Assembly: GCA_938008575.1 (NCBI GenBank)
Contig: CALLKB010000090.1
Span: 1 to 23,525 of the forward strand
Direction: 5' to 3'
Source: an uncultured Cytophagaceae bacterium
Lineage (GTDB): Bacteria; Bacteroidota; Bacteroidia; Cytophagales; Spirosomataceae
Length of the DNA stretch: 23,525 nucleotides
Of this stretch, positions 5,612-23,525 are shown one piece after another (position 1 is the first letter of the stretch; each line of letters starts with the position of its first letter). A program made the translations under genes and the position numbers. The notes beneath the pieces were generated by a model. The model was given only the letters and a program-made list of their open reading frames with translations, ran no database searches and had not been told where the DNA came from.

Positions 5612-5615
5612 GGGG

Positions 5616-6277: not shown

Positions 6278-6400
6278 GATTTATTAAAACTGCCAAAGGA
6301 TAATGGCTAAATATCTCTAAAACAGCTTTCCAAGCAAATTAAATAAAAAGCAAGGAGCTGTACAATAGATTAAGAGGTCTCAATAAACAATATTTTCATT

Positions 6401-6436: not shown

Positions 6437-6452
6437 AAAATAATCAATCAAG

Positions 6453-6908
6453 ATGATAGCAGAGGATAAAATAAGTAGACCAACCAAAGAGGAGCAGAGG
6501 CTTGCAAAAGAATCCTACGAAGCCTTATCTACGACTTTGGAATCGCTTCATGCGACAAATCCCGAAATAGAAATAGAGGAAACGGCAGAGAAAATCAGGG
6601 TACCATTAAAAGCCTTAAAACTTTTGGCAACAATCCTAAAAGCAACAAGTCAAGGAAAACCTATTTCCATCGTTCCCATCGCCACCGAAATGACCACCCA
6701 AGCAGCATCCGAATTATTGGGATGCTCCAGACCACATTTAATTTCTTTGCTTGAAAGTGGCGAAATACCTTTCATCAAAGTTGGCAAGCATCGTCGGATC
6801 AAATACGAAGATGTAACACAATACAAAGCCCAAATGTATGCCAAACAACGCGCGCGTATTATCGATATGATGAAAATGGATGAAGACCTTGGGCTGTATG
6901 ATTCATAG
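6453..6908 (+). CDS. Excisionase/MerR-like HTH antitoxin of a PIN-toxin pair
   Basis: A 151-residue protein. The charged N-terminal ~70 residues are helical. Residues ~80-127 form an excisionase-type winged HTH (HTH_17): MTTQAASELLGCSRPHLISL for the two helices and IPFIKVGKHRRIKYEDV for the wing. The C-terminal tail is a basic-then-acidic helix (KQRARIIDMMKMDEDLGLY) that could bind the toxin. It overlaps the PIN gene by 11 bp, the normal antitoxin-first layout. In this family the HTH partner is the DNA-binding antitoxin and represses its own operon. A lone excisionase of a mobile element is unlikely, because no integrase is present. Confidence 0.82.
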   Translation: MIAEDKISRPTKEEQRLAKESYEALSTTLESLHATNPEIEIEETAEKIRVPLKALKLLATILKATSQGKPISIVPIATEMTTQAASELLGCSRPHLISLLESGEIPFIKVGKHRRIKYEDVTQYKAQMYAKQRARIIDMMKMDEDLGLYDS

Positions 6909-7461
6909 TGTAAAATTCACTTGCTTTCTTGACACCAATGTCATTTATCCAATAATAACACGGGATATACTACTGTGGTTTGCCCACTTTGAATTATATA
7001 CACCCAAATGGAGCCCTGACATTTTTAATGAATGGGCTGAGGTCATGCAACGGAAAAACATATCCGAAGCGGAAATTAAAAAACGAATCGAAAATGTAAA
7101 TTTAGCGTTTCCGGGAGTCATCGTTTATGACTATGATTCCATTGTAGACACCCTAAATCTCCCCGACCTGAGGGACCGCCATGTATTAGCGGCAGCCATT
7201 AAATCGAATGCCGGAATTATCGTAACCAATAATTTAAAAGACTTTCCCCAGGCATATTTACAGCGCTATAATATTACAGCAAAAAATGTAGATGACTTTT
7301 TAACAGATCTCATTGACCTAAACCACGAAATCGCATTAGAGGCGTTTAAAATGATGGTTTCAAACAAGAAAAACCCTGATTTAGACGAATATCAGGTATT
7401 AAACGTTTTTCGAGAAAATGGATTAAAAGACACGGCAGACTACTTGCACGCCTTGTTATAA
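6898..7461 (+). CDS. PIN-domain ribonuclease toxin (PIN_3/VapC-like)
   Basis: A 187-residue PIN-fold protein with the acidic metal-binding set in order: Asp12 in CFLDTNVIYP, Glu45 in FNEWAEVM, Asp93 in LPDLRDRHVLAAA, and the Asn111/Asn112 to Asp115 region in IIVTNNLKDF. PIN toxins are Mg-dependent endoribonucleases that cut tRNA, rRNA or mRNA; the target here is not known. I chose ATG 6898 over an upstream ATG at 6880 because it places the start next to the antitoxin stop and opens directly on the first PIN strand. The C-terminal ~45 residues form an extra helical extension seen in this subgroup. It converges with the FAD monooxygenase, with only 4 bp between stops. Confidence 0.85.
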   Translation: MIHSVKFTCFLDTNVIYPIITRDILLWFAHFELYTPKWSPDIFNEWAEVMQRKNISEAEIKKRIENVNLAFPGVIVYDYDSIVDTLNLPDLRDRHVLAAAIKSNAGIIVTNNLKDFPQAYLQRYNITAKNVDDFLTDLIDLNHEIALEAFKMMVSNKKNPDLDEYQVLNVFRENGLKDTADYLHALL

Positions 7462-7465
7462 AATC

Positions 7466-8662
7466 CTATTTCCCATACTCCTCCAGCTCAATCGTATCAT
7501 CCGTCGGGGACTTGTTTTTATCCGAAAACAGCTCCCCGATTTTCATCACAAACTTACTCGAAATGACATTGAGAATCGTATTCAGTAAGAATATGCCCCA
7601 TTTTGTTTTGGGATGTGCCAACCAAGGCACTCCCGGAGGAAGTTTCTGAATCTTCGTCACATAAGGCCGAAAGGCTTTATCATAGGCGGCAAATGCATCC
7701 GCATAATTCGCATGGCGAGATAATTCCCCAGCCAAAATATAAGCTCCTACGACGGACAGACTAACGCCCATGCCCGTCAAGGGCGATGGACAAAATGCCG
7801 CATCTCCTGTCATGGCACAGCGGCCTTTCGACCAACGAGGCGCAATGACTTGGCTGATGGCATCAAAATACAAATCGGAGTTCTCCTCCATGGCGGCTAA
7901 GACGCGTTTGGCTTCCCAACCGGCATCTGAAAACTTATGCCGTAAAAGTTGCTTTTGCTCGTCTAGAGATAATTTTTCATAGCCCATGGGCTCCGACATA
8001 AACGAAAAGGATGCACGCGTCGTGCCCTCGTTATCCGGACGCATGACGATCACGCGCGAATTCGTTGCGTTATACCAACGAGCCCAACGGCTATCCGAGG
8101 GTCCACGTGGAATCGTAAAATAGGAGACATAAAGCCCCACAGGCTTGACGTACGGTTCATCGCCAAAAACCAATTGGCGAGTTCGCGATCGAATGCCATC
8201 CGCACAAATAACCAAATCAAAATCGCGGATTTCACCGTTTTGGAAAGTCACTTTTACACCGTCTGCATGCTCATCCAAGGCGATTATTTGATTGCCAAAT
8301 AGATACTCTACATGATCTTTGGTGTGCTTGTATAATATCTTGACCAAATCACCTCGTAAAATCTCGAGTTCGGAGGTTCCTAAATTGGATTCGCCTTTCG
8401 GCAGCGCGGCCTTGATCCCATCATTTTCATCCACAAATCGGACGCCCAACTCGCCCGTATCTGCCGCGCGAATTTCCTCCTCAATGCCCATCCATTGCGC
8501 GATTTTTTGCGCGGCACCTTTAATGTCGACATTTTGGCCTCCCAAACGCAGGCTTTCTGCGCGCTCCACAATCGTAACTTCAAAACCAAAACGATTCAAC
8601 CAAAAGGCTAGGGTAGGGCCAGCGATACTCGCACCAGAGATGAGGATTTTTTTGTGATTCAT
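7466..8662 (-). CDS. FAD-dependent monooxygenase (PHBH/TetX superfamily)
   Basis: A 398-residue class A flavoprotein hydroxylase. Motifs in order: N-terminal Rossmann region ILISGASIAGPTLAF (6-20), in which the usual GxGxxG is GASIAG; Glu/Arg at IVERAES; the DG motif VICADGIRSRTR (151-162); and the GD motif MTGDAAFCPSPLTGMG (~284-299), which contacts the FAD ribose and riboflavin. These enzymes hydroxylate aromatic or polyketide-like molecules with NAD(P)H and O2. The C-terminal ~40 residues have a hydrophobic helix near KWGIFLLNTILNVISS, perhaps a membrane or substrate lid. The substrate is unknown, and I see no basis for calling it tetracycline resistance. It is divergent from the VOC gene. 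Confidence 0.88.
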   Translation of the reverse strand: MNHKKILISGASIAGPTLAFWLNRFGFEVTIVERAESLRLGGQNVDIKGAAQKIAQWMGIEEEIRAADTGELGVRFVDENDGIKAALPKGESNLGTSELEILRGDLVKILYKHTKDHVEYLFGNQIIALDEHADGVKVTFQNGEIRDFDLVICADGIRSRTRQLVFGDEPYVKPVGLYVSYFTIPRGPSDSRWARWYNATNSRVIVMRPDNEGTTRASFSFMSEPMGYEKLSLDEQKQLLRHKFSDAGWEAKRVLAAMEENSDLYFDAISQVIAPRWSKGRCAMTGDAAFCPSPLTGMGVSLSVVGAYILAGELSRHANYADAFAAYDKAFRPYVTKIQKLPPGVPWLAHPKTKWGIFLLNTILNVISSKFVMKIGELFSDKNKSPTDDTIELEEYGK

Positions 8663-8690
8663 AAAAGCAAAGAAGGAAGATCTGCTTTTA
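8662..8690. promoter_or_regulatory. 8-bp inverted repeat over the FAD-monooxygenase start region
   Basis: TAAAAGCA (8662-8669) and TGCTTTTA (8683-8690) form a perfect inverted repeat with a 13-bp spacer that begins at the start codon. It sits in the 79-bp divergent region shared with the VOC gene and may be an operator, although no TetR- or MarR-type gene is adjacent. Confidence 0.3.
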
Positions 8691-8741
8691 AAAACTCAAA
8701 AGGGCGCCATAAGTTTTAAAATCATTTCATAAATTGGACTT

Positions 8742-9167
8742 ATGCCCAATATCATCCCACACATCCACTTCAACGGCAATACTGAAGAAGCATTTGAATT
8801 TTATCGTTCCGTATTTGGCGGATCGTTCTCGCGTTTGATGCGCTTTAAGGATTTGAACAATCCTGATTTCTCATTTCCTGAAGAAGAGCAAAATAAGATC
8901 ATGTTGATCCGTTTACCCATCGGTTCTTCGTTCGTTTTATCAGGAAGTGATGTGCCTAATTTTTTAGGTGTTGTGAGCGAGGAGGAGAACCGAAGCAAGA
9001 TTACCATTTCCGCAGCAAGTCAAGCAGAGGCCGAGGCACTATTCAATGGCTTGTCGGCCGGCGGAACCGTAGAAATGCCATTAGACGTAGGTCCTTGGGG
9101 CGCCTATTTAGGTGCGTTTAGGGACAAATATGGGATTGAGTGGATGGTGGAAACTACTGCTTCATAA
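8742..9167 (+). CDS. VOC-superfamily protein, PhnB/3-demethylubiquinone-like
   Basis: A 141-residue glyoxalase/bleomycin-resistance-fold protein of the PhnB-like branch: IIPHIHFNGNTEEAFEFYRSVFGG is the classic opening (IHFNGNTEEAFEFYRSVFG), SSFVLSGSDVP follows in the middle, and the second module closes with GPWGAYLGAFRDKYGIEWMV. PhnB-like proteins are usually small homodimers whose function is not settled; some act as metal-dependent isomerases or hydroxylases. No signal peptide. Its 3' end overlaps the convergent methyltransferase gene by 14 bp, so transcripts of the two genes are complementary at their ends. Confidence 0.9.
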   Translation: MPNIIPHIHFNGNTEEAFEFYRSVFGGSFSRLMRFKDLNNPDFSFPEEEQNKIMLIRLPIGSSFVLSGSDVPNFLGVVSEEENRSKITISAASQAEAEALFNGLSAGGTVEMPLDVGPWGAYLGAFRDKYGIEWMVETTAS

Positions 9168-9768
9168 AACTACAAAACACAAAATTATGCACCGCCCCGC
9201 TTGGTGTAATATGGTCTTCACGTTTGCATTCCGGGTTCTTGAAATCCGACTGAATGAACTTTGCTTTCATGCCCTCCTCATCATATTGTTGAATTTCTAA
9301 ACCACTACATTTGGTCGGCCCATCCGTAGAAAACGTTCCAATGATGACCATTCCATTCACCGCATTTTTGACGATACTTAGATAAGTGTCGATTTTGGTG
9401 GAATCGGTTTGAAAGTGAAAAGCGGCTCGATCATGCCAAACATCGTATTTCTCTTTAGGCTGAAAATCCAAAATATCGCTGACAATCCATGTAACTTTTT
9501 TGGCATCCTCACCTAACCTTTCTTGCACCCGAAGAATCGCGGCTTCGGAAATATCTAAAACAGAAAGATTCGTGTAGCCTTCAGCTAGTAAAAAATCAAC
9601 CAAGTTACTGTCACCGCCACCAATGTCGATAATCTTCGCATTTTGGGGGATTTTAAACTGATGGATGATTGCCAAAGAAGCCGTAGGAACCTCCTGCGTC
9701 CAACTCACTTCATTCGGCTGCTTGGTTTTATAAATGGCTTCCCAATGTTCTTTTACGTCCGTTATCAT
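9154..9768 (-). CDS. Class I SAM-dependent methyltransferase
   Basis: A 204-residue Rossmann-fold methyltransferase. Motif I is AKIIDIGGGDSNLVDFL (44-60), motif II the acidic end of LSVLDISEAAI, and the motif III/IV region VTWIVSDILDF followed by YDVWHDRAAFHF. The WHDRAAFHF segment is typical of a Bacteroidota/Proteobacteria group related to thiopurine/tellurite-type methyltransferases (TPMT/TehB-like). The acceptor is not known. It follows the DUF3052-like gene on the same strand with a 29-bp gap, and its end overlaps the convergent VOC gene. Confidence 0.88.
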   Translation of the reverse strand: MITDVKEHWEAIYKTKQPNEVSWTQEVPTASLAIIHQFKIPQNAKIIDIGGGDSNLVDFLLAEGYTNLSVLDISEAAILRVQERLGEDAKKVTWIVSDILDFQPKEKYDVWHDRAAFHFQTDSTKIDTYLSIVKNAVNGMVIIGTFSTDGPTKCSGLEIQQYDEEGMKAKFIQSDFKNPECKREDHITPSGAVHNFVFCSFMKQ

Positions 9769-9797
9769 GCAGCAAATTTGGGGAAAATCAGATGGGC

Positions 9798-10193
9798 CTA
9801 TTGTGACTTATGTGACTTCCCTACCTTTTCAATCGGACGAAATCGCAAGGCACTCCAGGTATCATCAATGGAAATCGCCGACACGGTCGTAATGCCAAAT
9901 TCCTCAACGGTCATTCGAATGCTATCGCGGTTGATATTAGCTTTCAATTTAGAAGTTCCTTTGGGATAGGCAATCCAAAAAACACTATCTGGAACAATGT
10001 GTCTGAGTCCTTCATTCAGAAAGTGGGTTAACTCTTTCTTTTCCGAAACAAAAACAAGCGTGTTTGTGCTTGGGGCCGAATTGAATTCCATTTTACATCC
10101 ATGTGCAAGAAATGCTTCCGCAAGGTCCTTGGGTGCTTGGATGACGATTCCATCGCCTTTGAATCGGAGTTTTTTAAGGATGTCTTTCATCAT
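9798..10193 (-). CDS. DUF3052-like conserved protein
   Basis: A 131-residue soluble protein, alpha/beta by appearance: LVFVSEKKELTHFLNEGL, then VFWIAYPKGTSKLKANINRD, and a C-terminal DDTWSALRFRP block. The PDSVFWIAYPKGTSK and IDDTWSALRFR signatures fit the DUF3052-like group, in which they are strongly conserved; the biochemical role is unknown. There is no signal peptide or obvious active site. It probably starts at ATG 10193 (ATGATGAAAGAC...), with a second ATG one codon later. It is likely co-transcribed with the methyltransferase downstream. Confidence 0.72.
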   Translation of the reverse strand: MMKDILKKLRFKGDGIVIQAPKDLAEAFLAHGCKMEFNSAPSTNTLVFVSEKKELTHFLNEGLRHIVPDSVFWIAYPKGTSKLKANINRDSIRMTVEEFGITTVSAISIDDTWSALRFRPIEKVGKSHKSQ

Positions 10194-10227
10194 GTAAAAT
10201 TAAGCGCCGCTTATAAGAAGGGGTCAC

Positions 10228-10251
10228 TTGATTGAGAAACAATCAAAAATA
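10228..10251 (-). promoter_or_regulatory. 19-bp palindrome overlapping a -7 box
   Basis: TTGATTG (10228-10234) and CAATCAA (10240-10246) form a perfect inverted repeat around AGAAA. The minus strand of 10251-10244 reads TATTTTTG, a full TAnnTTTG match, so the palindrome overlaps the likely promoter of the DUF3052-like gene and could be a repressor site. The -33 position shows only a partial match. Confidence 0.4.
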
Positions 10252-10289
10252 AATTAATTATCTTGGCATTCATAACCTATTTAAAAACC

Positions 10290-11222
10290 ATGAAAAAAAT
10301 TCATCAAATTCTATTTATACTCATCCTTCAATGTGTTGTAATAAATGCCATCGCACAAGACGGAACGATTTATCCGCTTGAAGCCCCCAAAGAGCCCAAT
10401 GCCATTCCCCTAAACACGGGTTCTGTGAAAGACCAGCCCGCACCTGAAACCTGGTTCCGCCAGTGGGGTGATCCGATGGCACGGAATATTTCAACAGCAA
10501 CCTTAACTCCTTTCTTTCCTGAAAAAGGCAAGGCCAATGGCGCAGCAGTTATCGTTGCTCCTGGCGGCGGATACCGTTGGCTTTCCATGGGCAATGAAGG
10601 CTGGGAGGTCGCAGAAGCGTTGGCCAAACAAGGAATAACAGCCTTCGTTTTAAAATATCGCTTATTTCCTACGCCTGAAAAGCTAGAAGATTTTACAGCT
10701 TGGATGAACCGCCCACGCCCTGCTCCCGCAAAAACGGACAGCTCTGCAAAAAATACGAATCCCATGGCGCAAATGGATCTGACCAATCAACTACAAGATG
10801 CCGAAGCGGCCTATGCAATGATTCTGAAAAACGCGACCGCATGGGGTGTCGATACGAAGCGAATCGGGATGATTGGTTTCTCCGCAGGGGCAGGATTAAC
10901 CATGCATGTGACGCTGAATTCCCAAACCATGAAACTGGCGTTTATTGGCCCTATTTATGGCGGCATGGGCCCGGTAAAAGTGCCGGTAAATGCTCCGCCC
11001 ATGTTCAATGCCATTGCTTCCGATGACTTCCTATTTAATGGGCAGTTTGGCGTGATTGATTCATGGTTTAAGGCCGGCCGACCGGTTGAATTTCATTTAT
11101 ACCAAAATGGAGGACACGGTTTTGGCTTAGGCAATCCAAACCGAACAAGTAATAAATGGTTTGATGCCTTTATTCACTGGTTAGATGTGAATAAGTTTTT
11201 AATATCAGCCAAAGCAGAATAA
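10290..11222 (+). CDS. Secreted alpha/beta hydrolase, xylan-esterase/BD-FAE-like
   Basis: A 310-residue exported hydrolase. The signal peptide is residues 1-~22 (FILILQCVVINAIAQ). I chose ATG 10290 because it starts exactly at the signal peptide (MKKIHQ); an in-frame TTG at 10263 is less likely. Fold features: oxyanion-hole region IVAPGGGYRWLSMGNEGWEVA, nucleophile Ser198 in MIGFSAGAG, acid Asp245 or Asp246 in AIASDDFLF, and His276 in NGGHGFGLG. Residues ~130-165 form a Pro-rich insertion (RPRPAPAKTD) over the active site. The group is often annotated as acetylxylan esterase or endo-xylanase; de-esterification of plant polysaccharides is the likely role. The M23 gene follows after 5 bp. Confidence 0.88.
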   Translation: MKKIHQILFILILQCVVINAIAQDGTIYPLEAPKEPNAIPLNTGSVKDQPAPETWFRQWGDPMARNISTATLTPFFPEKGKANGAAVIVAPGGGYRWLSMGNEGWEVAEALAKQGITAFVLKYRLFPTPEKLEDFTAWMNRPRPAPAKTDSSAKNTNPMAQMDLTNQLQDAEAAYAMILKNATAWGVDTKRIGMIGFSAGAGLTMHVTLNSQTMKLAFIGPIYGGMGPVKVPVNAPPMFNAIASDDFLFNGQFGVIDSWFKAGRPVEFHLYQNGGHGFGLGNPNRTSNKWFDAFIHWLDVNKFLISAKAE

Positions 11223-11227
11223 TACCT

Positions 11228-11845
11228 ATGATTCATCGCCTATTTTGCGAAGCGTTAAGCCCGCTGAACAGTATTACCCTCGATCTCAATGCTACGAATA
11301 CGGAATTGAATGCCTCCATTTATGGAAATACGAGCGCTTTTTGTGCTTATATCGAAGCAAAGCTTGGAGGGAAAATCGGTTATGGCGGTTATTTGGAACA
11401 TCGTGTGATATATGAGTCACACGAGAACTTTGCGACGGCCTCCGCCGATTTCCGAAATATCCATTTGGGTATAGATTTTTGGACTGAAGCGGGTACTCCG
11501 GTTTTTGCACCCCTCGCTGGCGTTGTACATAGCTTTCAAGTTAATCCGGGATCAGGGAATTATGGGCCAACAATCATTTTATTCCACCCAGCTGAAAAGA
11601 TTTACAGTTTATATGGGCACCTAGCAAGTTATGATTTAGCACAGCTGGAAGTTGGCGCACAGATTACAGCAGGCCAAAAGCTTTGCCACCTCGGAAAACC
11701 TGATGAGAATGGAGGCTGGCCACCCCATCTGCATTTCCAATTGATTCGTGATATGCAGGGATTTCAGGGAGATTATCCGGGCGTTTGTTCACTGCGTGAT
11801 GTGGACTTTTATGCGAAAAATTGTCCGGATCCGGCCCGCTTTTGA
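11228..11845 (+). CDS. Cytoplasmic-looking M23 (LytM-type) metallopeptidase domain protein
   Basis: A 205-residue protein with the M23 zinc ligands in the canonical pattern: His79 and Asp83 in HLGIDFW, the catalytic His131 in YGHL, and His167-x-His169 in PPHLHFQ. It has no signal peptide or membrane segment, which is unusual for a peptidoglycan peptidase. The sequence (GTPVFAPLAGVVHSF, NYGPTIILFH, ENGGWPPHLHFQ, GDYPGVCSL, and the ending NCPDPARF) resembles the M23 module found fused between a phosphotransferase-like and a class III aminotransferase domain in larger proteins; here it stands alone. The cytosolic target is unknown. It is probably co-transcribed with the esterase upstream and converges with a methyltransferase after 4 bp. 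Confidence 0.85.
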   Translation: MIHRLFCEALSPLNSITLDLNATNTELNASIYGNTSAFCAYIEAKLGGKIGYGGYLEHRVIYESHENFATASADFRNIHLGIDFWTEAGTPVFAPLAGVVHSFQVNPGSGNYGPTIILFHPAEKIYSLYGHLASYDLAQLEVGAQITAGQKLCHLGKPDENGGWPPHLHFQLIRDMQGFQGDYPGVCSLRDVDFYAKNCPDPARF

Positions 11846-11849
11846 TACT

Positions 11850-12533
11850 TTATTCGCGAGTGTGTTGTTCATCAGCGAGTTTGCCACGACGATGAAACGT
11901 AAATGTTAAAAACGTCTTCCCATTTGGTAAACTATTCTCTTCTTCAAATGATTTGTGAAAGCCAAAATCAACCATTGTTGATTGCACAATCTCCTTATCA
12001 ATTCGCTTAAATTGGCCACTTAAAACATTTACTCCCTCAATTCCGGATTGGCTAACCGCGCCATTCCCATTATTCGATTGAATAGTAACGACGATGACTC
12101 CCCCTTCAGCTAGGTTATTCAACATAAACTGAATACAATTTTTCAAGTCGACGTATTCCAAAAACAAGGCGGCCCAAATGAAATCTGACTGAATGAATGT
12201 TTCGGTCGTTTCGTCAATATTACATTTTATCAGTTTCAATTGAGGAAGCGTATTCTTGAATCGAAGATATGTTTGCTGAAGGTAATCCTCATTGATATCG
12301 ATTCCGACCACGTGTTCAACGGTCGTAGCATCCACATGTTCTAAGCCATTTCCTCCAGCTATTCCCAAAAATAAAGGCTTTTGGGGTTGATGTTTTTCGA
12401 GGTATTTTTTCGTCAATGCACTTAGCAAGGGCAATTGAGCCACAGTCTCGTGGCTCATGTGATTTTCATAATCCGCTAATGAAACTTGATTCCAAAGAGT
12501 GCTCGAATCGTTAATTTTTTCAATTGGATTCAT
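11850..12533 (-). CDS. Class I SAM-dependent methyltransferase
   Basis: A 227-residue methyltransferase. Motif I is unusual, PLFLGIAGGNGLEHV (53-67), followed by the acidic motif II VVGIDINEDYL, motif III LKLIKCNID and motif IV DFIWAALFLEYVDL. It ends with a strand pair around FHKSFEEENSLPNGKTFLTFTFHR (shown as KSFEEENSLPNGKTFLTF). There is no signal peptide. The acceptor is unknown; the FLEYVD segment is typical of small-molecule methyltransferases. It converges with the M23 gene and is 32 bp downstream of the VOC gene, so it may share its transcript. Confidence 0.85.
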   Translation of the reverse strand: MNPIEKINDSSTLWNQVSLADYENHMSHETVAQLPLLSALTKKYLEKHQPQKPLFLGIAGGNGLEHVDATTVEHVVGIDINEDYLQQTYLRFKNTLPQLKLIKCNIDETTETFIQSDFIWAALFLEYVDLKNCIQFMLNNLAEGGVIVVTIQSNNGNGAVSQSGIEGVNVLSGQFKRIDKEIVQSTMVDFGFHKSFEEENSLPNGKTFLTFTFHRRGKLADEQHTRE

Positions 12534-13040: not shown

Positions 13041-13067
13041 AACAAAAAGAGGCCAAGTTCGACCTCT
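13041..13067 (-). terminator. Intrinsic terminator of the sugar operon
   Basis: On the minus strand AGAGGTC pairs with GGCCTCT (13067-13061 with 13054-13048; one G-U pair) around a 6-nt loop and is followed at once by TTTTTGTTTTG. It lies 25 bp after the stop at 13092. Stem, loop and U-run are all as expected for an intrinsic terminator, so this most likely marks the 3' end of the transcript coming from beyond 23525. Confidence 0.8.
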
Positions 13068-13091
13068 ATTTGTTTCTTAACACCCCTATAA

Positions 13092-14501
13092 TTAACGAGG
13101 CAATACCGTCACAATCACGCGCTGATAGCGAGTTAAAGCAGGTGTCCCTTTATCCGTCACTTGCAAAATAAAATGAATCGTTTTGGGACTATCTACCTGA
13201 GGAGCTGTAATCGGCAAACGATACAAATTAGGCGAATAGGGTCTCGTGCTGATATATCCCGGATAGGTCCCCGCCTCTTTGTATTGAAACCACAAATAAC
13301 TCATGGAATCCCCATCGGGATCAATCGTCCCCTCCGCATTTAAGAAAAACTCCTCGCCAGATTTCACCGTAAATGCCGACGGATGTGCCGTTTTAACCAC
13401 AGGAGGGTGATTAACGTCCTTGTACGCTTTTGTTGTCCAATCGATTCGCGCCGCAAAATCATGTTGGACAGCGGTACGCCAACGCCAAATAGTGGCCAAA
13501 TTACTTTTATAGGCCTGCTTATCTACACCGCGAAGCGAATCCTCCGCATTGGTCCAAATAGCTCTTGTTTCGGGTTCGTCTTTTGGCCAATTTTCCCGTT
13601 TAAATCCTCCGGAATTGGAGTCTCTAAAGGCAGGTAGATAATGTTCATACCGTCCTCCCCAACCTCCATAATTAGGAAATTGCGCATTGTTTAATCCATT
13701 CTCAATCAATCCCAAATAAGCAGGCGTATCGCCTTCCATTCCATACGCCACATCCGGATATAATGCTCCTAAAGGTCCATGGCCTTGTTGGATGTTGTGG
13801 GCCAACCACTCATTGGAAACGGATTCCAAATCAGAACCAGGTGCCTTTGCCGACATCCCCAGCCAAGTGGCGTAGGAATAACTATAGCCCGGCGTTACGA
13901 CAAAAAAGATATCCGGGAAATTCTTTCGTATCCAAGGGCCAGAATCATCTTGATCCGAAATCGTATAGATTCGAACTTTTTGATAAATTTTAGCGGCCTG
14001 TGCGGCCGACAAGGTTGACTTAATTTTAAATAAGGCTTGTGCCAAGGTATTTGGACCACCCCAAATGCTAAACCAAATAGGTCTTTCATCCGGCTTCATC
14101 AATTGGTCTACAATCCAATTCGACCCCTCCGAATCGTGATTCGCCCCTACACCCTGCATCCCATAAACAGGAAGCCCTTTTTTAACCAATTTGCTTAAGT
14201 GTTCATGGCTCGGAAAGCCTTTCTCGTGCAGGCTTAAATTAGGATAGACTTTTTTATATGCACCCAACACTTGATGGATAGAGGCTGGAAACACACTTGT
14301 TTTTTGATGGATCGACGTCGTCGCAACCAAGCCTTCAATATCCCATTGATTGCTGTACAACAAAAAGCGTATCAAGGATTGCGTATCATCTGGATCCGCC
14401 TCAATATCCGTTAAAACAATCACGCGTTTTTTTTCTTGCTGCGCATGAGTTAGCGTAATGCTCCAGCCAACAAAAAACAAAGTAAAGAGGATGTATTTCA
14501 T
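13092..14501 (-). CDS. Secreted DUF1593 (Sde182-like) nucleoside-hydrolase-like protein, copy A
   Basis: A 469-residue exported protein. Signal peptide 1-~20 (ILFTLFFVGWSITLTHA). The N-terminal domain has a nucleoside-hydrolase-type Asp cluster, VLTDIEADPDDTQSLI (Asp32, Glu34, Asp36, Asp38, Asp39), where such enzymes bind Ca2+ and the ribose. It is followed by DQDDSGPWIRKNFPD and WGGPNTLAQAL, and by NYGGWGGRYEHYLP. The last ~95 residues form an Ig-like C-terminal domain ending in PALTRYQRVIVTV. The family (Sde182/'cellulose-binding') is linked to polysaccharide use, but the substrate is unproven. It is the last gene of the operon, 8 bp after the esterase stop, and is a paralogue of the gene at 15687. 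Activity (glycoside or N-riboside cleavage) is inference. Confidence 0.87.
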   Translation of the reverse strand: MKYILFTLFFVGWSITLTHAQQEKKRVIVLTDIEADPDDTQSLIRFLLYSNQWDIEGLVATTSIHQKTSVFPASIHQVLGAYKKVYPNLSLHEKGFPSHEHLSKLVKKGLPVYGMQGVGANHDSEGSNWIVDQLMKPDERPIWFSIWGGPNTLAQALFKIKSTLSAAQAAKIYQKVRIYTISDQDDSGPWIRKNFPDIFFVVTPGYSYSYATWLGMSAKAPGSDLESVSNEWLAHNIQQGHGPLGALYPDVAYGMEGDTPAYLGLIENGLNNAQFPNYGGWGGRYEHYLPAFRDSNSGGFKRENWPKDEPETRAIWTNAEDSLRGVDKQAYKSNLATIWRWRTAVQHDFAARIDWTTKAYKDVNHPPVVKTAHPSAFTVKSGEEFFLNAEGTIDPDGDSMSYLWFQYKEAGTYPGYISTRPYSPNLYRLPITAPQVDSPKTIHFILQVTDKGTPALTRYQRVIVTVLPR

Positions 14502-14509
14502 AGCAAGTC

Positions 14510-17177
<2,668 letters not shown>

Positions 17178-17178
17178 A

Positions 17179-18645
17179 TTAATAGGTATTTGTTTCAATG
17201 ATTTCTTTCCAGGTTTCGTAAGCCTCTTTGATCGCTTTATGCGAAGCCATGGAGGCCAAAGAATCCGCTTGAATCAGCTGTTTCAAGGCCTGCAAATTAG
17301 GGTAAAGACCCCCCTGGAGCCCGGCTAAAAATGCAGCTCCTTGGGCAGATATATGCGGATTGTCTTGTTGGTGAATAGGCGCGGCCAACAAGCCTTGCAG
17401 GCATTTTTGCACATAGCTGTTCCGGGACAAGCCTCCGTGCATCGCAATCTGCTGTATGTTTGAGCCAAAATCAGCTTCCATGGCATCCACCACAGCCTTG
17501 ATCTGAAAGGCTATACTTTCCAATGTCGCCTTAATCAGGTGCGCAGGCTTGGTACCAAACCGCATGCCCACAAAGGAAGCCTTGCGATCCATTTGCCAAA
17601 AAGGCGCCCCCAAACCACTAAAGGCAGGAACTAAATATACCCCCGGATCTTCTTCGACAGATTCAGCTATCGAGGCAGAAGCACGCACATCGTCTAAGAT
17701 GCCCATATCTTTTTTCAACCACTCCATCATGGAACCACAGGCAACAATCGCACCCTCCCAAGCATAAGCTACTTCGTCCTGGGTACTCCAAGCAATGGTG
17801 CTCAACAAGCCTTGCGTGGAAACGCGTGGCGCATTGCCCACGTGCATCAAAAGCGAGCAACCTGTTCCCAAAGTCATCTTCGTATCCCCTTCCGTAAAAC
17901 AGGTTTCCCCAAACATCGAGGCATGTGAATCCCCGATCATCGCAAGCACCGGAATGCCATCCGGCGCCAAACCGAATAAATCTGTTTGGCCAAAATCATC
18001 CGAAGAACGCTTCAATACTGGCAAATGCAAGGAGCTTAATCCCCAACGTGCCAATATTTCCGTGTCCCACGTCAAGGACGCTAGGTTAAAAAACAAGGTC
18101 CGACTCGCATTCGTCAAGTCACACGCATACGAACGTCCTTGCGTCAATTGAAATAAAATCCAAGTGTCCACGGTACCGAAATACAATTCCCCCGCTTCGA
18201 GCGATTGGCGAAGAGATGGGTCGTTTTCTAGCAGCCACAAGACTTTCGTTCCTGAAAAATAAGGGTCAATCAAAAGGCCCGTCCGGGATTTGATCCAGTC
18301 GTTTTGATCCTGTAGCTTTTCACAAATCGCGGTGGATCGTTTGCAAGCCCAAACAACGGCTGGACTCAGCGGCTTACCCTGCGCATCCCACAAAACAAAT
18401 GTTTCGCGCTGATTACTAATCCCAATTCCCTTAATGCTTTTCGGATCCATGCCAGAAAGGCAAGCCTTCACCGCGTTTTCCACACTTTGCATCAAGGCAA
18501 GCGGATCTTGCTCCACATGTCCATTCGGGAAATACGTTGTTTCGAGATCGGCGAGGCCTTGTGCCACCACTTCTCCGCGCACATTCATCAGCAGCGCTTT
18601 GGTACTACTTGTTCCTTGGTCAATCGCTAAAATCAAGTCCTCCAT
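17179..18645 (-). CDS. FGGY-family carbohydrate kinase, glycerol-kinase-like but with altered substrate pocket
   Basis: A 488-residue cytoplasmic ATP-dependent kinase of the FGGY family, closest in motif order to GlpK: AIDQGTSSTKALL (7-19), ISNQRETFVLWD (76-87), DPYFSGTKVLWLL (127-139), FGTVDTWILFQLT (156-168), MIGDSHASMFGE (236-247), LGTGCSLLMH (259-268) and VPAFSGLGAPFW (339-350). Compared with E. coli GlpK glycerol contacts, Arg80, Glu81, Trp99, Tyr129 and Asp239 (R83, E84, W103, Y135, D245) are kept, but Q246 is Ser240 and F270 is Ser264. The substrate is thus probably a different polyol or ketose. It sits between the permease (1-bp gap) and DUF1593 copy B (1-bp gap), so it acts on the imported sugar. 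A xylulose/apulose-type substrate is a hypothesis. Confidence 0.9.
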   Translation of the reverse strand: MEDLILAIDQGTSSTKALLMNVRGEVVAQGLADLETTYFPNGHVEQDPLALMQSVENAVKACLSGMDPKSIKGIGISNQRETFVLWDAQGKPLSPAVVWACKRSTAICEKLQDQNDWIKSRTGLLIDPYFSGTKVLWLLENDPSLRQSLEAGELYFGTVDTWILFQLTQGRSYACDLTNASRTLFFNLASLTWDTEILARWGLSSLHLPVLKRSSDDFGQTDLFGLAPDGIPVLAMIGDSHASMFGETCFTEGDTKMTLGTGCSLLMHVGNAPRVSTQGLLSTIAWSTQDEVAYAWEGAIVACGSMMEWLKKDMGILDDVRASASIAESVEEDPGVYLVPAFSGLGAPFWQMDRKASFVGMRFGTKPAHLIKATLESIAFQIKAVVDAMEADFGSNIQQIAMHGGLSRNSYVQKCLQGLLAAPIHQQDNPHISAQGAAFLAGLQGGLYPNLQALKQLIQADSLASMASHKAIKEAYETWKEIIETNTY

Positions 18646-18646
18646 C

Positions 18647-19612
18647 TTAGTTCGATTTTTGATTCATTTTATCTACAATCACGGCCAACAAAATCACCAG
18701 CCCTTTCACTACCTGCTGCCAAAAAGGGGACACATTCAACAAGACCAATCCATTGTTCAACACACCAATCAAAATAGCTCCGATGATCGTACCTTTGATG
18801 GAACCTTGACCGCCCGACAAAGACGTTCCGCCAATCACAATAGCCGCAATGGAGTCCAATTCATAATTCATACCGGCATTAGGCTGCGCAGAATTCAGCC
18901 GCGAAGTAACCAAAACCCCACCAATGGCGGCCATCGCTCCTGACAAAGCATACACGAGCCATTTCACCTGTTTGATGGGAATCCCAGATACCAAAGCCGC
19001 TTTTTCATTACCCCCAATCGCATAGATAAAGCGACCTAAACTCGTCCGATTCGTGATCACCACAAAGACCAAAATCAAGCATGCCGAAATCCAAACGGGA
19101 ACGGGAACGCCCAACAACCAGGCCGCTCCAATCTGCTCAAAATCTGTCCCTAAATCGGAAATCGGTTGGCCCTGCGTATATAAAAAACTAAGCCCACGCG
19201 CAATGGTCAGCATGGACAGCGTCGCCACAAAAGGAGGAACCGAAAAGCGGGTAATGACCCAACCGTTAAAAAAGCCCAAGGAAGTCCCCACCAAGATCGC
19301 GGCCAACGTAGCTCCCAAAACGGTAAATCCGACCCAAAGATCCAAGGCTGGAAAGGCTAACCCGAATTTCAATAAACCCGCACAAATGGCGCCACTTAAA
19401 CCTAAAATTGCCCCAACAGACAAGTCAATGCCGGCAGTCAAAATGACCAAAGTCATCCCGATGGACAGACAGAGGTTGACGGAGATTTGGCGTAATACAT
19501 TCCACAGATTTCCCGTGGTTAGAAATTTATCAGACACCACACTCAGCACGACCATGAGTAGAAATAGGGCGATGAGGGACTGTGATTTTTTGAGTAGTGA
19601 ATTTGATATCAT
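18647..19612 (-). CDS. RbsC-like ABC sugar importer permease
   Basis: A 321-residue inner-membrane protein with about ten hydrophobic segments, e.g. SLIALFLLMVVLSVVS near the N terminus and VVKGLVILLAVIVD at the C terminus. Family motifs: TAGIDLSVGAILGLSGAIC in the second/third helices, and the cytoplasmic AIVIGGTSLSGGQGSIKGT loop that contacts the ATPase. I start it at ATG 19612 (MISNSLLKKS), which overlaps the ATPase stop by ATGA; the frame to 19693 lies inside the ATPase gene and adds a polar stretch. It is a homodimeric channel partner of the ATPase and binding protein in this operon. Substrate is a small sugar or polyol. Confidence 0.92.
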   Translation of the reverse strand: MISNSLLKKSQSLIALFLLMVVLSVVSDKFLTTGNLWNVLRQISVNLCLSIGMTLVILTAGIDLSVGAILGLSGAICAGLLKFGLAFPALDLWVGFTVLGATLAAILVGTSLGFFNGWVITRFSVPPFVATLSMLTIARGLSFLYTQGQPISDLGTDFEQIGAAWLLGVPVPVWISACLILVFVVITNRTSLGRFIYAIGGNEKAALVSGIPIKQVKWLVYALSGAMAAIGGVLVTSRLNSAQPNAGMNYELDSIAAIVIGGTSLSGGQGSIKGTIIGAILIGVLNNGLVLLNVSPFWQQVVKGLVILLAVIVDKMNQKSN

Positions 19613-21096
19613 AGGATAGGTAGAGCTTCTTTTAATAAATTCGATGCGTTCAGGTGGGAACCCGTCAATTCTGCCTGAATTTGGCCTTGACACATCACGA
19701 GTACACGATCCGCAAGGGCCACAATTTCGGGTATTTCAGACGAGGCAAAGAGGATGCAAGTTCCCTCCGCCGCGATTTGTTTCATTAACTGATAAATTTC
19801 ATCTTTGGCTTGAATGTCGATACCGCGCGTCGGCTCATCCAACAAAAGGATCGTAGGCTTCGTCGCTAACCATTTTGCTAGAATGACTTTTTGTTGGTTA
19901 CCGCCGCTCAATTTTCCACACAATTGTTCGATCGACGCACTTTTAATCCGCAAGTCTTGTCGGTATTTCTCCGCCAATTCAGCGTCTTTATCTGCTTGCA
20001 ACCAATCCCCTAAATGAAGACTCGGCAGGCTGATATTGAATGCCAAATCTTGGTCCATCACCAGCCCGTCTTTCTTTCGGTCCTCTGTTACAAAAGCGAT
20101 TTGATGCCCGATCGCATCCGCAGGGCACTGGATCGAGCAGGGCTTTCCGTGAATTTGAATATCCATGGACGCTTCTGAAGCATGCATCCCAAAAAGGGTT
20201 TCAAGTAATTCGGTCCGGCCCGCACCCATCAGGCCATAGAGACCTAAAATTTCCCCTTGATGCGCTTTGAATTGAATGTTATGCAGTCGGGGTTTCGCAT
20301 CCGAGGCGCCAAGCGTCAAAGCTTTCACTTCTATTGCCAAAGCTTCCCGAGCAAAGGATTCGGCTTTGGGTTCAATGATGACGTTTCGGCCCACCATAAA
20401 AGCAATCAATGCTTCTTCGCTAGTGTCTTTCATTTCCCCGGCAGCAATACTTTTCCCATCCCGCAAAACGTGAAAATATTCCGAAATGCGAAATAGCTCC
20501 TCCATTTTATGTGAGATGTACACAATCGTTTTTCCTTCTGCTTGCCAACGGCGTATCAGGGCATGCAAACGATCTATTTCTTGGTCGGACAAAGCGGAGG
20601 TAGGCTCGTCCATCAAAATAACGGATGCTTGGCTATGCAAGGCTTTGGCGATTTCAACCAATTGCTGTTCGCTCAATTTTAGTTCCCCAACGAGCGTTGC
20701 GGGCGAAGCGTTCACGCCCACTTCGGCTAATAATTCTACGCAAATGCGGTCCATGGCGGCACGGTCCAACAAGCCCCAGGAATTCGTTAGTTCTTTTCCC
20801 AAAAACAGATTTTCGCAAATGCTCAGGTTCGGGAATAGGTTTAATTCTTGGTGAATAATCGCGATGCCTGCTGCTTGTGAGGCTTTCGTATCGGCAAAAG
20901 TAATCACCTGATCCAGCAAGCGAATTTCCCCTTGATAGCCTTGATTAACACCCGAGAGAATTTTGAGCAAGGTGGATTTCCCGGCACCGTTTTCCCCGAG
21001 CAGGGCATTGACCTTCCCAGCTTGGAAAGACAAATTCACCGCATCCAATGCTTTCACACCGGGGAATTCCATCGTTAAGTTATGAACAGCTAACAT
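19609..21096 (-). CDS. RbsA-like double-domain ABC sugar importer ATPase
   Basis: A 495-residue protein with two nucleotide-binding domains. Domain 1 (~1-235): Walker A LLGENGAGKSTLLK (33-46), Q-loop HQELN, signature LSEQQLVEIAKAL (141-153) and Walker B VILMDEPTSAL. Domain 2 (~250-495): degenerate Walker A LYGLMGAGRTELLET, intact signature LSGGNQQKVILAKWL, and Walker B ILLLDEPTRGID. A weakened second P-loop is normal for the RbsA/XylG/MglA group. It powers import of a monosaccharide together with the permease and the lipoprotein upstream. Gaps: 1 bp from the DUF2291 stop, and 4-bp overlap with the permease start. It is cytoplasmic. Confidence 0.93.
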   Translation of the reverse strand: MLAVHNLTMEFPGVKALDAVNLSFQAGKVNALLGENGAGKSTLLKILSGVNQGYQGEIRLLDQVITFADTKASQAAGIAIIHQELNLFPNLSICENLFLGKELTNSWGLLDRAAMDRICVELLAEVGVNASPATLVGELKLSEQQLVEIAKALHSQASVILMDEPTSALSDQEIDRLHALIRRWQAEGKTIVYISHKMEELFRISEYFHVLRDGKSIAAGEMKDTSEEALIAFMVGRNVIIEPKAESFAREALAIEVKALTLGASDAKPRLHNIQFKAHQGEILGLYGLMGAGRTELLETLFGMHASEASMDIQIHGKPCSIQCPADAIGHQIAFVTEDRKKDGLVMDQDLAFNISLPSLHLGDWLQADKDAELAEKYRQDLRIKSASIEQLCGKLSGGNQQKVILAKWLATKPTILLLDEPTRGIDIQAKDEIYQLMKQIAAEGTCILFASSEIPEIVALADRVLVMCQGQIQAELTGSHLNASNLLKEALPIL

Positions 21097-21097
21097 C

Positions 21098-21685
21098 TCA
21101 GTGCTTGATTTCTACAGGGTAAATCGTCAACGAAGTCACAGGCAAATCGCTAGGAGCTACCTCACAAGCACCCACATAGCTGATCTCATCACCGACCTGA
21201 ATACCCTTCATTTCCGCAGGGATTTTGGTTTCACGTAGATGCTTATTTAAGGCTTCGGTTAAGGCATTTAAGTCTTTCTGGGACTTAAAATCTTCTAAAT
21301 GAATCATTCGAGAGGCGTCCCGCACCTCATTCCCAAAAATGAATTGCGTATCCAAACCTGAGCCATTGTCTAATAGCACATACCCATCTCGAATGGAGCT
21401 AATCCGCGCCTTTCCTTTGACTAGATAATAGGCCGACTCCCCGATACCTAGGCGATTACCTAATTTTTTCTGTGTATTAGTTAGATTATTGTTTAATTCT
21501 TTAATTAGTTGCTGGTCTTCGGTCAATACCGGATTATTCAAAACCCCTTGTACAAGTATTGCCTCCACCCGTTTGCCAAAATCCTGCACACCTGAAGCTT
21601 GCTGTGTACGCGTGCTCAATTTTTCAAAATAGACGGATTGATAGCCTAAAACCAGCAAAACTAAGATTCCGATGCCCTTTTTCAT
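21098..21685 (-). CDS. DUF2291 family membrane-anchored protein of a sugar ABC system
   Basis: A 195-residue protein with a short N-terminal hydrophobic anchor (GIGILVLLVLGYQSVYF), then a soluble periplasmic domain. The family signature includes FGKRVEAILVQGVLNNPVL, LGIGESAYYLVKGKARISSI and, towards the end, IQVGDEISYVGACEVAPSDLPV. DUF2291 proteins are found mostly next to Rbs-type transporter genes, between binding protein and ATPase as here, which suggests a role in transporter assembly or substrate delivery; the mechanism is not known. No lipobox is visible, so the N-terminal helix is probably the anchor. 1-bp gaps on both sides show tight coupling. Confidence 0.88.
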   Translation of the reverse strand: MKKGIGILVLLVLGYQSVYFEKLSTRTQQASGVQDFGKRVEAILVQGVLNNPVLTEDQQLIKELNNNLTNTQKKLGNRLGIGESAYYLVKGKARISSIRDGYVLLDNGSGLDTQFIFGNEVRDASRMIHLEDFKSQKDLNALTEALNKHLRETKIPAEMKGIQVGDEISYVGACEVAPSDLPVTSLTIYPVEIKH

Positions 21686-21686
21686 A

Positions 21687-22595
21687 TTAAAAATGTTTGG
21701 CTGTTTTTGCGTTCACGAGATTCACACCTACGGGGATGTGTTGCGGAAAGGACTTCCGACCTTTAAAAAATTCCACGGCAAAAGTCGCGGCCGTTTTGGC
21801 CATGACCTTAGGGTATTGCATGCCTGTGGCAACAATCTTACCTTCTTTAATTTTTTGGACAACCTCATCTGCACCGTCGAAACCAAAGACTTTAATTTGC
21901 TCCGACTTCCCTGCCGATTGAATCGCCTGAAAAGCACCGAGGGCCATGGCATCATTGCCACAAAAAACCCCTTGAATACTTGGATTCGCCTGCATCATCG
22001 ATTCCATGACCTCCATCGCCTTATTGCGGTCAAAATCACCGTTTTGTTGGCCTAGCAATTTCAAGCCTTTGAATTTATCCACCACAGTATGAAAACCATT
22101 GGAACGCGCATAGGTATTGTTATCGCCTGCTAAACCCAAAATTTCCACGTAATTCCCTTTCCCATGCAATTGCTTGACAAATTCCACGCCGATCGCCACA
22201 CAACCCGTGTAGTTATCGGATAATATTTGGCTCGTAGCCGCATCGTTTGAATTAACCTCTCGGTCCATACAGAAAACGGGTATTCCAGCTTCTTTGGCCT
22301 TTAGGATATTGGCAATGGAACCATCCGCATCCGTGGGGTTAAACAGAATAGCATCGAACCCCGAAGAAATCAAGTTTTCGAAATGATCTGATTCCACGGC
22401 CGGGTTATTTTGGGAGTCAAAAAGCTTCGCCTCATAGCCAAGTTTTTCGGCTTGTTGGACCGCTGATTCGCCCAATACGACAAACCAAGGATTATTCAGC
22501 GTCGAGATGACCACGGCAATTTTGGGTTTTTCGGTGGACTCTTTCGAGCTGCAGCCTGCTAAGAACAGTCCCAAGAAAAGGAATATGTATTTCAT
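21687..22595 (-). CDS. RbsB-type sugar-binding lipoprotein of the ABC importer
   Basis: A 302-residue class I periplasmic binding protein (peripla_BP_4). The lipobox LFLAGCSSKES places the acylated Cys at residue 15, so it is membrane-tethered. The family strand-turn pattern is present: KIAVVISTLNNPWFVVLGESAVQQAEKLGYE, shown in parts as IAVVISTLNNPWFVVLGE; then SGFDAILFNPTDADGS, VEILGLAGDNNTYARSNGF, and GVFCGNDAMALGAFQAIQSAG. The ligand should be a small pyranose, furanose or polyol; which one cannot be told from the sequence. It overlaps the transketolase-subunit stop by ATGA and is followed after 1 bp by DUF2291. Confidence 0.92.
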   Translation of the reverse strand: MKYIFLFLGLFLAGCSSKESTEKPKIAVVISTLNNPWFVVLGESAVQQAEKLGYEAKLFDSQNNPAVESDHFENLISSGFDAILFNPTDADGSIANILKAKEAGIPVFCMDREVNSNDAATSQILSDNYTGCVAIGVEFVKQLHGKGNYVEILGLAGDNNTYARSNGFHTVVDKFKGLKLLGQQNGDFDRNKAMEVMESMMQANPSIQGVFCGNDAMALGAFQAIQSAGKSEQIKVFGFDGADEVVQKIKEGKIVATGMQYPKVMAKTAATFAVEFFKGRKSFPQHIPVGVNLVNAKTAKHF

Positions 22596-23524
22596 CGATT
22601 TAATAGGTTTAAAGCCACGCCTTGGATGCCCGCACCCGAGAGGCCATAATGGTCAAAAATCTCCGTTTGAGAACCCGTAACGGTATATTCATCTGGGAAA
22701 CCCATGATTTGAAAAGGAACAAAAAAGCCTTGTTGGAATAAATATGACCCAACCGCCTCACCCAAACCACCATGCACAGAATGTTCTTCCACCGTGATGA
22801 TGGGTTTGCCAGCGGCACCCAGATTGGCCAACAAATCCGTATCCAAGGGTTTAATCGTATGCAGGCTAATCACTTGGGCGGAAATGCCTTGTTCGGCCAA
22901 AAGTTCTACCGCTTGCACGCAAGGCCAAACGGTTTCTCCCGTGGCAATCAAAGACAGGTCGGCACCTGCACGAATGATGCGACCTTTCCCAATTTCGAAA
23001 TTCGGCGAGAGGCTTTGGCCTAAATCCGGCATGTTTTTCTTTCCAAAACGGATGTAAATCGGCTTATCCGTCGCGGCAGCATAGCGAATGGCTTGCTCCG
23101 TTTCAAAGGCATCCGCCGGGACTACAATAGGCAAATTATGGATCGCACGCAAGGCGGCAAAATCGTGTAAACTGTGGTGCGTACTTCCCAGCGCACCGTA
23201 ACTCACACCCGCTGAAATCCCGATTAAACGCACCGGATTATCGGAATACGCGACATCGTTTTTGATCTGTTCCAGGGAGCGGGCCGTCAAAAAACAGGCC
23301 GGGGAAACCGCAAAAGCTTTTTTACCCATGGCAGCTAGTCCAGCCGCTACGCCTACAAGGTTTTGTTCCGCTATGCCTATTTCGACAATTTGGTCAGGAA
23401 ATTTCTCTCCGAAGGGCACCAACTTCCCGGAGCCTCGCGAATCAGAGGTCACGGCTACGACCTGGCGATCTTGCGCGGCAAGAGCTTGTAGAGTTTCTGA
23501 AAATACTTCTAAGTTCGCTTTCAT
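22592..23524 (-). CDS. Transketolase, C-terminal subunit (split enzyme)
   Basis: A complete 310-residue second half of a split transketolase. It has the pyrimidine-binding domain, with the TPP-activating Glu53 in VEIGIAEQNLVGVAAG, the substrate-phosphate region with GSTHHSLHDFAALRAI (113-128), and the C-terminal transketolase domain with LSLIATGETV and VEEHSVHGGLGEAVG. The ATG at 23524 opens the family's usual start (MKANLEVFSETLQAL). The N-terminal, pyrophosphate-binding subunit should lie just beyond the right edge, because these halves are always paired. The enzyme moves two-carbon units between ketose and aldose phosphates. Its place in a sugar-import operon suggests a specialised substrate, such as apulose 4-phosphate in AptAB-type enzymes (inference). 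Confidence 0.9.
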   Translation of the reverse strand: MKANLEVFSETLQALAAQDRQVVAVTSDSRGSGKLVPFGEKFPDQIVEIGIAEQNLVGVAAGLAAMGKKAFAVSPACFLTARSLEQIKNDVAYSDNPVRLIGISAGVSYGALGSTHHSLHDFAALRAIHNLPIVVPADAFETEQAIRYAAATDKPIYIRFGKKNMPDLGQSLSPNFEIGKGRIIRAGADLSLIATGETVWPCVQAVELLAEQGISAQVISLHTIKPLDTDLLANLGAAGKPIITVEEHSVHGGLGEAVGSYLFQQGFFVPFQIMGFPDEYTVTGSQTEIFDHYGLSGAGIQGVALNLLNR

Positions 23525-23525
23525 A

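Follow-up and report, generated by a model that had tools for sequence, protein, structure and literature searches.

The window analysed here, a stretch of 23,525 nucleotides (nt) from an uncultured Cytophagaceae bacterium (contig CALLKB010000090.1), carries nine minus-strand genes (13092-23524) that are packed as a single run across its right 10.4 kb. The run joins one half of a split transketolase and a CUT2-type ATP-binding cassette (ABC) sugar importer to a kinase of the FGGY family, two DUF1593 proteins, and an esterase. It is a real and conserved operon, and most likely encodes a variant of the AplK-AptAB route for D-apiose that employs an L-fucose isomerase-like (FucI-like) isomerase along with seemingly secreted DUF1593 proteins. 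In the order of transcription, the features are:

22592-23524, minus strand: TktB, C-terminal half of a split transketolase (PF02779 and PF02780)
21687-22595, minus strand: sugar-binding lipoprotein (SBP) of the CUT2 ABC importer
21098-21685, minus strand: DUF2291 protein, marker of this importer type (PF10054, 91 bits)
19609-21096, minus strand: ABC importer ATPase with two ABC_tran stretches (PF00005)
18647-19612, minus strand: ABC importer permease, its ATG start overlapping the ATPase stop codon (PF02653)
17179-18645, minus strand: FGGY kinase of the GlpK-like type (PF00370/PF02782)
15687-17177, minus strand: DUF1593b (Sde182 nucleoside-hydrolase-like), with an N-terminal signal-like stretch
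14510-15676, minus strand: esterase with an N-terminal signal-like stretch, read by eye (PF00756, 82 bits)
13092-14501, minus strand: DUF1593a, with an N-terminal signal-like stretch, read by eye (PF07632, 346 bits, and PF21027)
13048-13067, minus strand: probable intrinsic terminator, an 8-pair stem followed by a T tail

From TktB onward, the genes are spaced by -4 (ATGA), 1, 1, -4 (ATGA), 1, 1, 10, and 8 nt. An initial annotation made from the sequence alone had described nine packed genes with these domains, ATGA overlaps, and gaps of 1-10 nt, all of which is confirmed with two start codons moved: as judged from gene overlaps, the permease starts at ATG 19612 rather than at GTG 19693, and DUF1593b at ATG 17177 rather than at TTG 17198, the latter positions being those of the mechanically called open reading frames (ORFs). 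The putative terminator stem (13067-13048) begins 24 nt beyond the last stop codon; since terminator-like sites are not commoner in the window than in shuffled sequence (16 versus a mean of 14.9), it is the position of the stem that speaks for it. The best NCBIfam models are xylose/arabinose/ribose-type ATPases for the ATPase and a ribose permease for the permease, every one scoring below its cut-off, and the esterase shows an additional weak AMPK1_CBM match (PF16561, 23.6 bits; cut-off 26.8). The TktB gene is whole, and the N-terminal transketolase half is not encoded within the window.

Orthologous operons in Bacteroidota

An N-terminal transketolase subunit, an isomerase, and a regulator had been expected past position 23525, and everything on these genes is read from relatives of the window's source. 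A collection of species genomes was scanned with a DUF1593b profile and the best 80 of 321 relatives, many on cut contigs, were taken as loci; within the stretches examined, operon parts are visible in 14 of these 80. Sandaracinomonas limnophila (locus L001), the nearest of the named relatives, has the complete operon in a gene order identical to that of the window, and all three expected functions are present in the order DeoR, PF02952 (FucI-like), TktA, TktB, SBP, DUF2291, ATPase, permease, FGGY, DUF1593b, esterase, DUF1593a. The source of the window can be expected to carry the same upstream genes (TktA, FucI-like, DeoR). Identity between the window and S. limnophila amounts to 92% for the SBP, 81% for DUF1593b, and 68% for the kinase (17179-18645), an uneven divergence within one operon.

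Of 200 genomes of the S. limnophila family, 71 contain DUF2291 (PF10054), one of them by a weak match; it is also present in 9 of 299 genomes of the Euzebyella family and in 5 of 395 genomes drawn from across the phylum. Around DUF2291, 73 regions were fetched, one of which (L180) was dropped because its ATPase was unmatched, leaving 72 to be scored. As a 300-nt gap rule and our own ORF caller were applied, the resulting counts are lower bounds: the whole core (FucI-like, TktA, TktB, SBP, DUF2291, ATPase, permease) lies in a single run in at least 65 of the 72 regions, and the run includes the FucI-like gene in at least 65, TktA in 65, TktB in 67, the FGGY kinase in 52, and DeoR in 47. The gene set, which the initial annotation had proposed to look for in other Bacteroidota, thus recurs widely among these regions, and the same order in S. 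limnophila together with the core run in 65 of the 72 argues that the gene order does not arise by chance.

Kinase, importer, and the identity of the sugar

The original paper on the D-apiose pathway is reportedly that of Carter et al. 2018. In Escherichia coli SE15, the apiose cluster (ECSF_RS02670-02715) consists of two short-chain dehydrogenase/reductase (SDR) genes, permease, ATPase, DUF2291, SBP, FGGY kinase, regulator, TktA, and TktB. The E. coli and E. fergusonii strains tested that bear such a cluster grew on D-apiose and K-12 did not, SE15 not being among the strains tested; the cluster was assigned by gene content, and the available part of the source reports no gene deletion (PMC13001218). 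A comparison of the window operon with the AptAB pathway had been drawn at the outset; it is upheld, and DUF2291 and the GlpK-like kinase can now be added as links. First, the window encodes an importer of the E. coli apiose-cluster kind, that is, a CUT2 ABC importer with DUF2291. Second, the window kinase and the E. coli apiose-cluster kinase, which are 37% identical, score 491.3 and 490.4 bits, respectively, against the GlpK model NF000756 (cut-off 498), and both carry serine (S/S) in place of GlpK Q246 and F270, which we take to be pocket positions. A role as glycerol kinase is thought unlikely, since at these positions Q/F is found in six GlpK-like paralogues taken from operon-bearing genomes.

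The link between DUF2291 and apiose-type genes is borne out by plasmids. A DUF2291 match was found in 26 plasmid records, 15 of which were opened; together with L204 (chosen by accession), L262, and L263 they make up 18 loci, whose gene tables are incomplete and in which annotations were used where present because the ORF caller misses genes in GC-rich records. DUF2291 adjoins apiose- or apionate-type genes in 17 of the 18 loci (eight aptAB/aplK-like, nine oiaX-type), and in all 15 opened records one of the two sets stands beside it. The oiaX-type call is weak for L212 and L213 (164-165 bits to Rhizobium etli OiaX plus two more apionate-cluster neighbours), and the transketolase and kinase matches of L211, L217, and L218 are at family level. 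Among five control loci with ribose-type SBPs, two have DUF2291 (L262, L263), while L259-L261 show neither annotated DUF2291 nor apiose-type genes. DUF2291, for which no mention was found in the literature searched, is therefore a candidate genomic marker for apiose-type importers. Of the control genomes, Bacillus subtilis has a DUF2291 match, and Thermotoga maritima has matches for both DUF2291 and the apiosidase family PF13204.

A further connection is provided by bridge clusters on plasmids of Klebsiella pneumoniae (pINF102.2), Sodalis praecaptivus (pHS1), and Rahnella H145. Relative to the E. coli apiose genes, their kinases are 69-72%, TktA 78-79%, TktB 73-77%, and regulators 72-75% identical; the SDR pair is absent from these clusters, and each holds a FucI-like gene that is 53-54% identical to that of S. 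limnophila. The simplest reading of the bridge clusters is that the FucI-like protein would supply the same ketose to the same kinase. ApsI, the D-apiose isomerase, is a TIM barrel. In S. limnophila, the place of the isomerase is held not by an ApsI-type protein but by a member of PF02952 (L-fucose isomerase C-terminal family), while in Rhizobium (L217) it is filled by a TIM-barrel protein. When the latter was compared with 18 operon-bearing genomes, the best match reached 28% identity and 58.6 bits, ApsI itself not being among the queries. A TIM-barrel gene in the Emticicia aquatica operon was considered as ApsI and rejected, showing no similarity to the L217 protein. No match to the Klebsiella FucI-like gene was obtained in E. 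coli genomes, no Pectobacterium occurs among the named entries of 120 listed relatives of its product (most entries being nameless), and no solved structure matches the S. limnophila FucI-like protein by sequence. Two short linear Klebsiella 'plasmid' records of one strain, L198 (CP110761.1) and L216 (CP110763.1), have no replication gene annotated; one carries the sugar cluster plus a single additional gene, the other has broken-up copies of similar genes, and both may be fragments of an assembly.

The surroundings of the kinase also bear on the sugar. Seventeen genomes whose operon lacks a kinase encode a 49-52% identical one on the same contig, at a distance of 12-37 kb, with the S/S pocket in all six checked. 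Next to this detached kinase gene stands an apiosidase-like gene in 11 of the genomes, SusC in 5, and a pectate lyase gene in the remaining one; the one apiosidase-like neighbour scanned has the architecture DUF5060-PF13204-DUF5605. Nine of the 17 loci were read further by similarity to Pfam-checked genes of locus L249: SusC/SusD-like and GH127-like genes occur in all nine and a BT_1020-like gene in eight. Given the BT_1020-like and GH127 genes, these surroundings suggest that the detached kinase resides in a locus for rhamnogalacturonan II, in the degradation of which BT1020 presumably acts. Apiose is part of rhamnogalacturonan II in plant cell walls, so the operon bears on the use of pectin by environmental bacteria. 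The beta-apiosidase of rhamnogalacturonan-II degradation in Bacteroides thetaiotaomicron is BT1012, according to the available part of PMC7939467. Within the operon itself, an apiosidase-like gene is found in 6 of the 72 regions. The gene after the permease was considered as the missing kinase of Spirosoma-type operons and rejected, those scanned being fructose-bisphosphatase (FBPase) or GH43-like. That the route is fed by an ABC importer and not by SusCD, as the initial annotation had it, is correct for the window, where Pfam detects no SusC/SusD pair among the nine genes; it does not carry over to the related genomes, whose detached kinase sits in a SusCD locus.

It seems quite likely from these links that the sugar is apiose, and the following scheme as a whole is probable. 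Outside the cytoplasm, the two DUF1593 proteins and the esterase would trim apiose-bearing plant material and free D-apiose, which would cross the inner membrane via the DUF2291-type CUT2 ABC importer. The FucI-like isomerase, encoded upstream of the window, would convert D-apiose into D-apulose, and the GlpK-like FGGY kinase would phosphorylate the latter to apulose 4-phosphate. The split TktAB would then transfer a two-carbon unit to glyceraldehyde 3-phosphate to give dihydroxyacetone phosphate together with xylulose 5-phosphate, as apulose-4-phosphate transketolase does. The DeoR-type protein would regulate the operon.

Several observations weigh against an apiose operon. The identities to the E. 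coli SE15 apiose-cluster subunits, 41% for the window TktB and 47% for the S. limnophila TktA, are low, and split transketolase pairs similar to TktAB are present in other loci too. An Agrobacterium kinase whose neighbouring importer lacks DUF2291 has the S/S pocket as well, so that this pocket is not specific to apiose. A kinase tree, rejected as a judge of the sugar, falls into three separate groups (window-type, E. coli-type, and GlpK-like paralogues; three entries are long-branched). On the Arthrobacter plasmid L262, DUF2291 occurs without aptAB or oiaX; RpiB, TPI, alcohol dehydrogenases, and a member of the dihydroxyacetone-kinase family accompany the importer there and may constitute yet another pathway for this sugar or one related to it. 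Finally, a binding protein for ribose only had been named from the start as a finding that would speak against an unusual sugar, and the window SBP and 82 of 82 orthologues retain every one of the ten residues that contact ribose in the Thermotoga ribose-binding protein, as listed in PMC2630998.

This last point is the core of the case for ribose, in which the DUF1593 proteins would cleave ribosides outside the cell, the ABC importer would take up D-ribose, the FucI-like protein would convert it into D-ribulose, the FGGY kinase would form ribulose 5-phosphate, and the split transketolase would boost the pentose phosphate pathway. By the same ten contacts, the E. coli apiose-cluster SBP retains five and the enteric FucI-cluster SBPs eight. 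Among binding proteins of solved structure, those nearest to the window SBP bind ribose or are named as doing so: by sequence the best match is the T. maritima ribose-binding protein (55% identical), and structure comparison places 4ry0 and 2fn8 in a tie. Yet 4ry0 and 5ibq are structures of an R. etli protein that is encoded within an oiaX (apionate) cluster and, in an alignment read by eye, has the same polar contacts as the window SBP; the ligand in 5IBQ is alpha-D-apiose. The contacts therefore do not separate the two sugars, and the binding pocket was set aside as a judge between them. Ribose would also accord with the DUF1593 fold, which is common to ribosyl hydrolases, and with an extra operon gene of one family in eight regions (L139, L141, L142, L144, L149, L151, L155, L159), the scanned member of which (L139:14043-15092) belongs to the inosine-uridine nucleoside hydrolase family (PF01156) and is a second nucleoside-hydrolase-type enzyme there. 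A canonical ribose operon (RbsDACBK) was rejected, as neither RbsD nor ribokinase is among the nine window genes or in the S. limnophila operon; moreover, ribose catabolism does not need a dedicated transketolase, and it would be left unexplained why the kinase has apiosidase-like, BT_1020-like, and pectate lyase genes as neighbours. The ribose operon of T. maritima, presumably TM0951-TM0957, also counts against apiose. It is reported to include two predicted D-arabinose enzymes and transketolase, and ribose induces it 14- to 92-fold over glucose, with xylose almost equal, in the portion of PMC3750489 available. On balance, ribose appears unlikely.

That the operon imports some other pectin-derived furanose or ketose, such as an arabinose-like sugar, and that the transketolase acts on a different ketose phosphate, is very improbable. 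This reading is favoured by an Agrobacterium locus (L206) that combines a split transketolase, an FGGY kinase, and SDR genes with an ABC importer lacking annotated DUF2291, which means that split transketolase and FGGY kinase alone are no proof of apiose, and by GH127 (named as a beta-L-arabinofuranosidase family) and GH43-like genes near some operons. The very absence of annotated DUF2291 from L206 tells the other way, the DUF2291 loci being apiose- or apionate-type in 17 of 18 cases.

DUF1593 proteins and the esterase

The initial annotation had proposed that the DUF1593 proteins free the sugar and that the esterase de-acylates it. For DUF1593, the association with the operon holds: a DUF1593 gene is in the run in at least 56 of the 72 regions, anywhere in the fetched stretch in 65, and directly before the SBP gene in 46. 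Seven regions (L190-L196) stem from genomes first found through DUF1593b; after their removal, the counts are 50, 58, and 42 of 65. In 12 genomes, chosen from the DUF2291 list after inspection of short neighbour listings, 21 of 34 PF07632 genes lie within 20 kb of DUF2291, compared with 0.21 expected and a maximum of 3 in 20,000 random placements. Release of the sugar, and likewise its de-acylation by the esterase, are suggested by this company of genes. The interpretation put forward in the initial annotation is thus partly supported overall.

DUF1593 adopts a nucleoside-hydrolase fold (model of DUF1593b), and DUF1593a matches PDB entry 2yhg, Sde_0182 of Saccharophagus degradans, with an E value of 4.2e-84. 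Nucleoside hydrolases bind their metal through a DxDxxxDD motif. The corresponding region is conserved in altered form, as D-x-E-x-[DE]-x-D-D in DUF1593a and D-G-E-I-D-D in DUF1593b. Acidic positions are invariant in both proteins (D32, D38, D39, and D258 in 80 of 80 DUF1593a sequences; D38, D42, D43, and D319 in 91 of 91 DUF1593b sequences), which argues for catalysis. DUF1593 may be an apiosidase. A more far-reaching proposal, which we regard as tentative and somewhat doubtful, holds that the DUF1593 proteins are apiofuranosidases (a ribosyl-hydrolase fold turned O-glycosidase), that the FucI-like protein represents a second, unrelated kind of D-apiose isomerase, that the operon encodes a complete ABC-fed apiose route of Bacteroidota, and that the Thermotoga 'ribose/D-arabinose' genes belong to the same pathway. 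In such an apiofuranosidase, the metal would hold the cis-diol of apiose.

A possible alternative, likewise tentative and overlapping with the apiose scheme, retains apiose catabolism for the cytoplasmic half and lets DUF1593 cleave another furanoside of the same polymer or bind sugar non-catalytically. In its favour, Sde_0182 is reported to be inactive on nucleosides, its domain being viewed as a furanose-interacting module in the available text of PMC8910321, and a PF13204 apiosidase-family match already exists in 17 of 18 operon-bearing genomes searched. Furthermore, DUF1593b orthologues are found alongside numerous unrelated glycan genes; some of their loci contain carboxylesterases, AtuA, GH3, or GH51 and, in the stretches examined, no sign of the operon, a point that also counts against the apiose scheme. 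Against this alternative stand the invariant acidic positions, and three genomes of 7-8 Mb in which the operon copy is the sole PF07632 gene found. The name DUF1593 is absent from the literature found, in which Sde182-type names do occur, and among the matches listed no title or abstract ties DUF1593 or the FucI-like protein to apiose (subscription papers lay outside the search).

Another recurring cluster with DUF1593b orthologues contains a CitMHS transporter and AtuA with a ferredoxin-like partner (L064 and L022 by Pfam), where DUF1593b would have a different role. The L064 version also includes carboxylesterases, and L025, L031, L075, and L076 have the same cluster as judged by gene sizes. 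A protein in L252 (16596-17894) fuses DUF1593 (PF07632) with DUF5060, the N-terminal domain of apiosidase-like proteins. In the remainder of the window (765-12533), ten ORFs were scanned that look unrelated: a LigB-type dioxygenase, cNMP-binding and AraC regulators, DUF2911, a beta-helix protein, a PIN domain, an FAD-binding oxidoreductase, a methyltransferase, an alpha/beta hydrolase, and an M23 peptidase.

Comparison with known systems

The value of the operon resides in two enzyme assignments that it makes testable. For DUF1593/PF07632, still without a substrate although structure 2yhg was released in 2011, it offers one specific sugar; a single search brought up 4904 relatives of DUF1593b. 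In addition, the operon presents a candidate second type of D-apiose isomerase; such proteins of enterics and Bacteroidota currently bear only the annotations 'fucose isomerase' or 'L-fucose/L-arabinose isomerase family protein'.

Despite their shared features, several differences exist between the window operon and the systems known. Sde_0182 belongs to a longer polypeptide that also has carbohydrate-binding domains, as the available text of PMC8910321 describes it. The rhizobial 3-oxo-isoapionate (OiaX) clusters, exemplified by R. etli p42f, have the DUF2291-containing importer type in common with the window; they serve an oxidative apionate route, and no transketolase, FGGY kinase, or FucI-like gene is annotated in the stretches seen. 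The RbsR operon of T. maritima resembles the window operon in its ribose ABC importer, its two predicted D-arabinose enzymes, and its transketolase, with a DUF2291 match in the genome, and differs by a ribokinase and a LacI-family regulator (available part of PMC3750489). The E. coli SE15 apiose cluster is similar in its split transketolase, its GlpK-like FGGY kinase, which narrowly misses the GlpK cut-off, and its CUT2 ABC importer with DUF2291. In contrast to the window and S. limnophila operons, it harbors two SDR genes and another type of regulator, and neither a FucI-like gene nor DUF1593 or esterase genes. The enteric FucI clusters share the core of SBP, DUF2291, ATPase, permease, TktA, TktB, FucI-like protein, and FGGY kinase with the window operon and its relatives, whereas their regulator and gene order are different and no secreted glycosidase or DUF1593 protein is annotated there.

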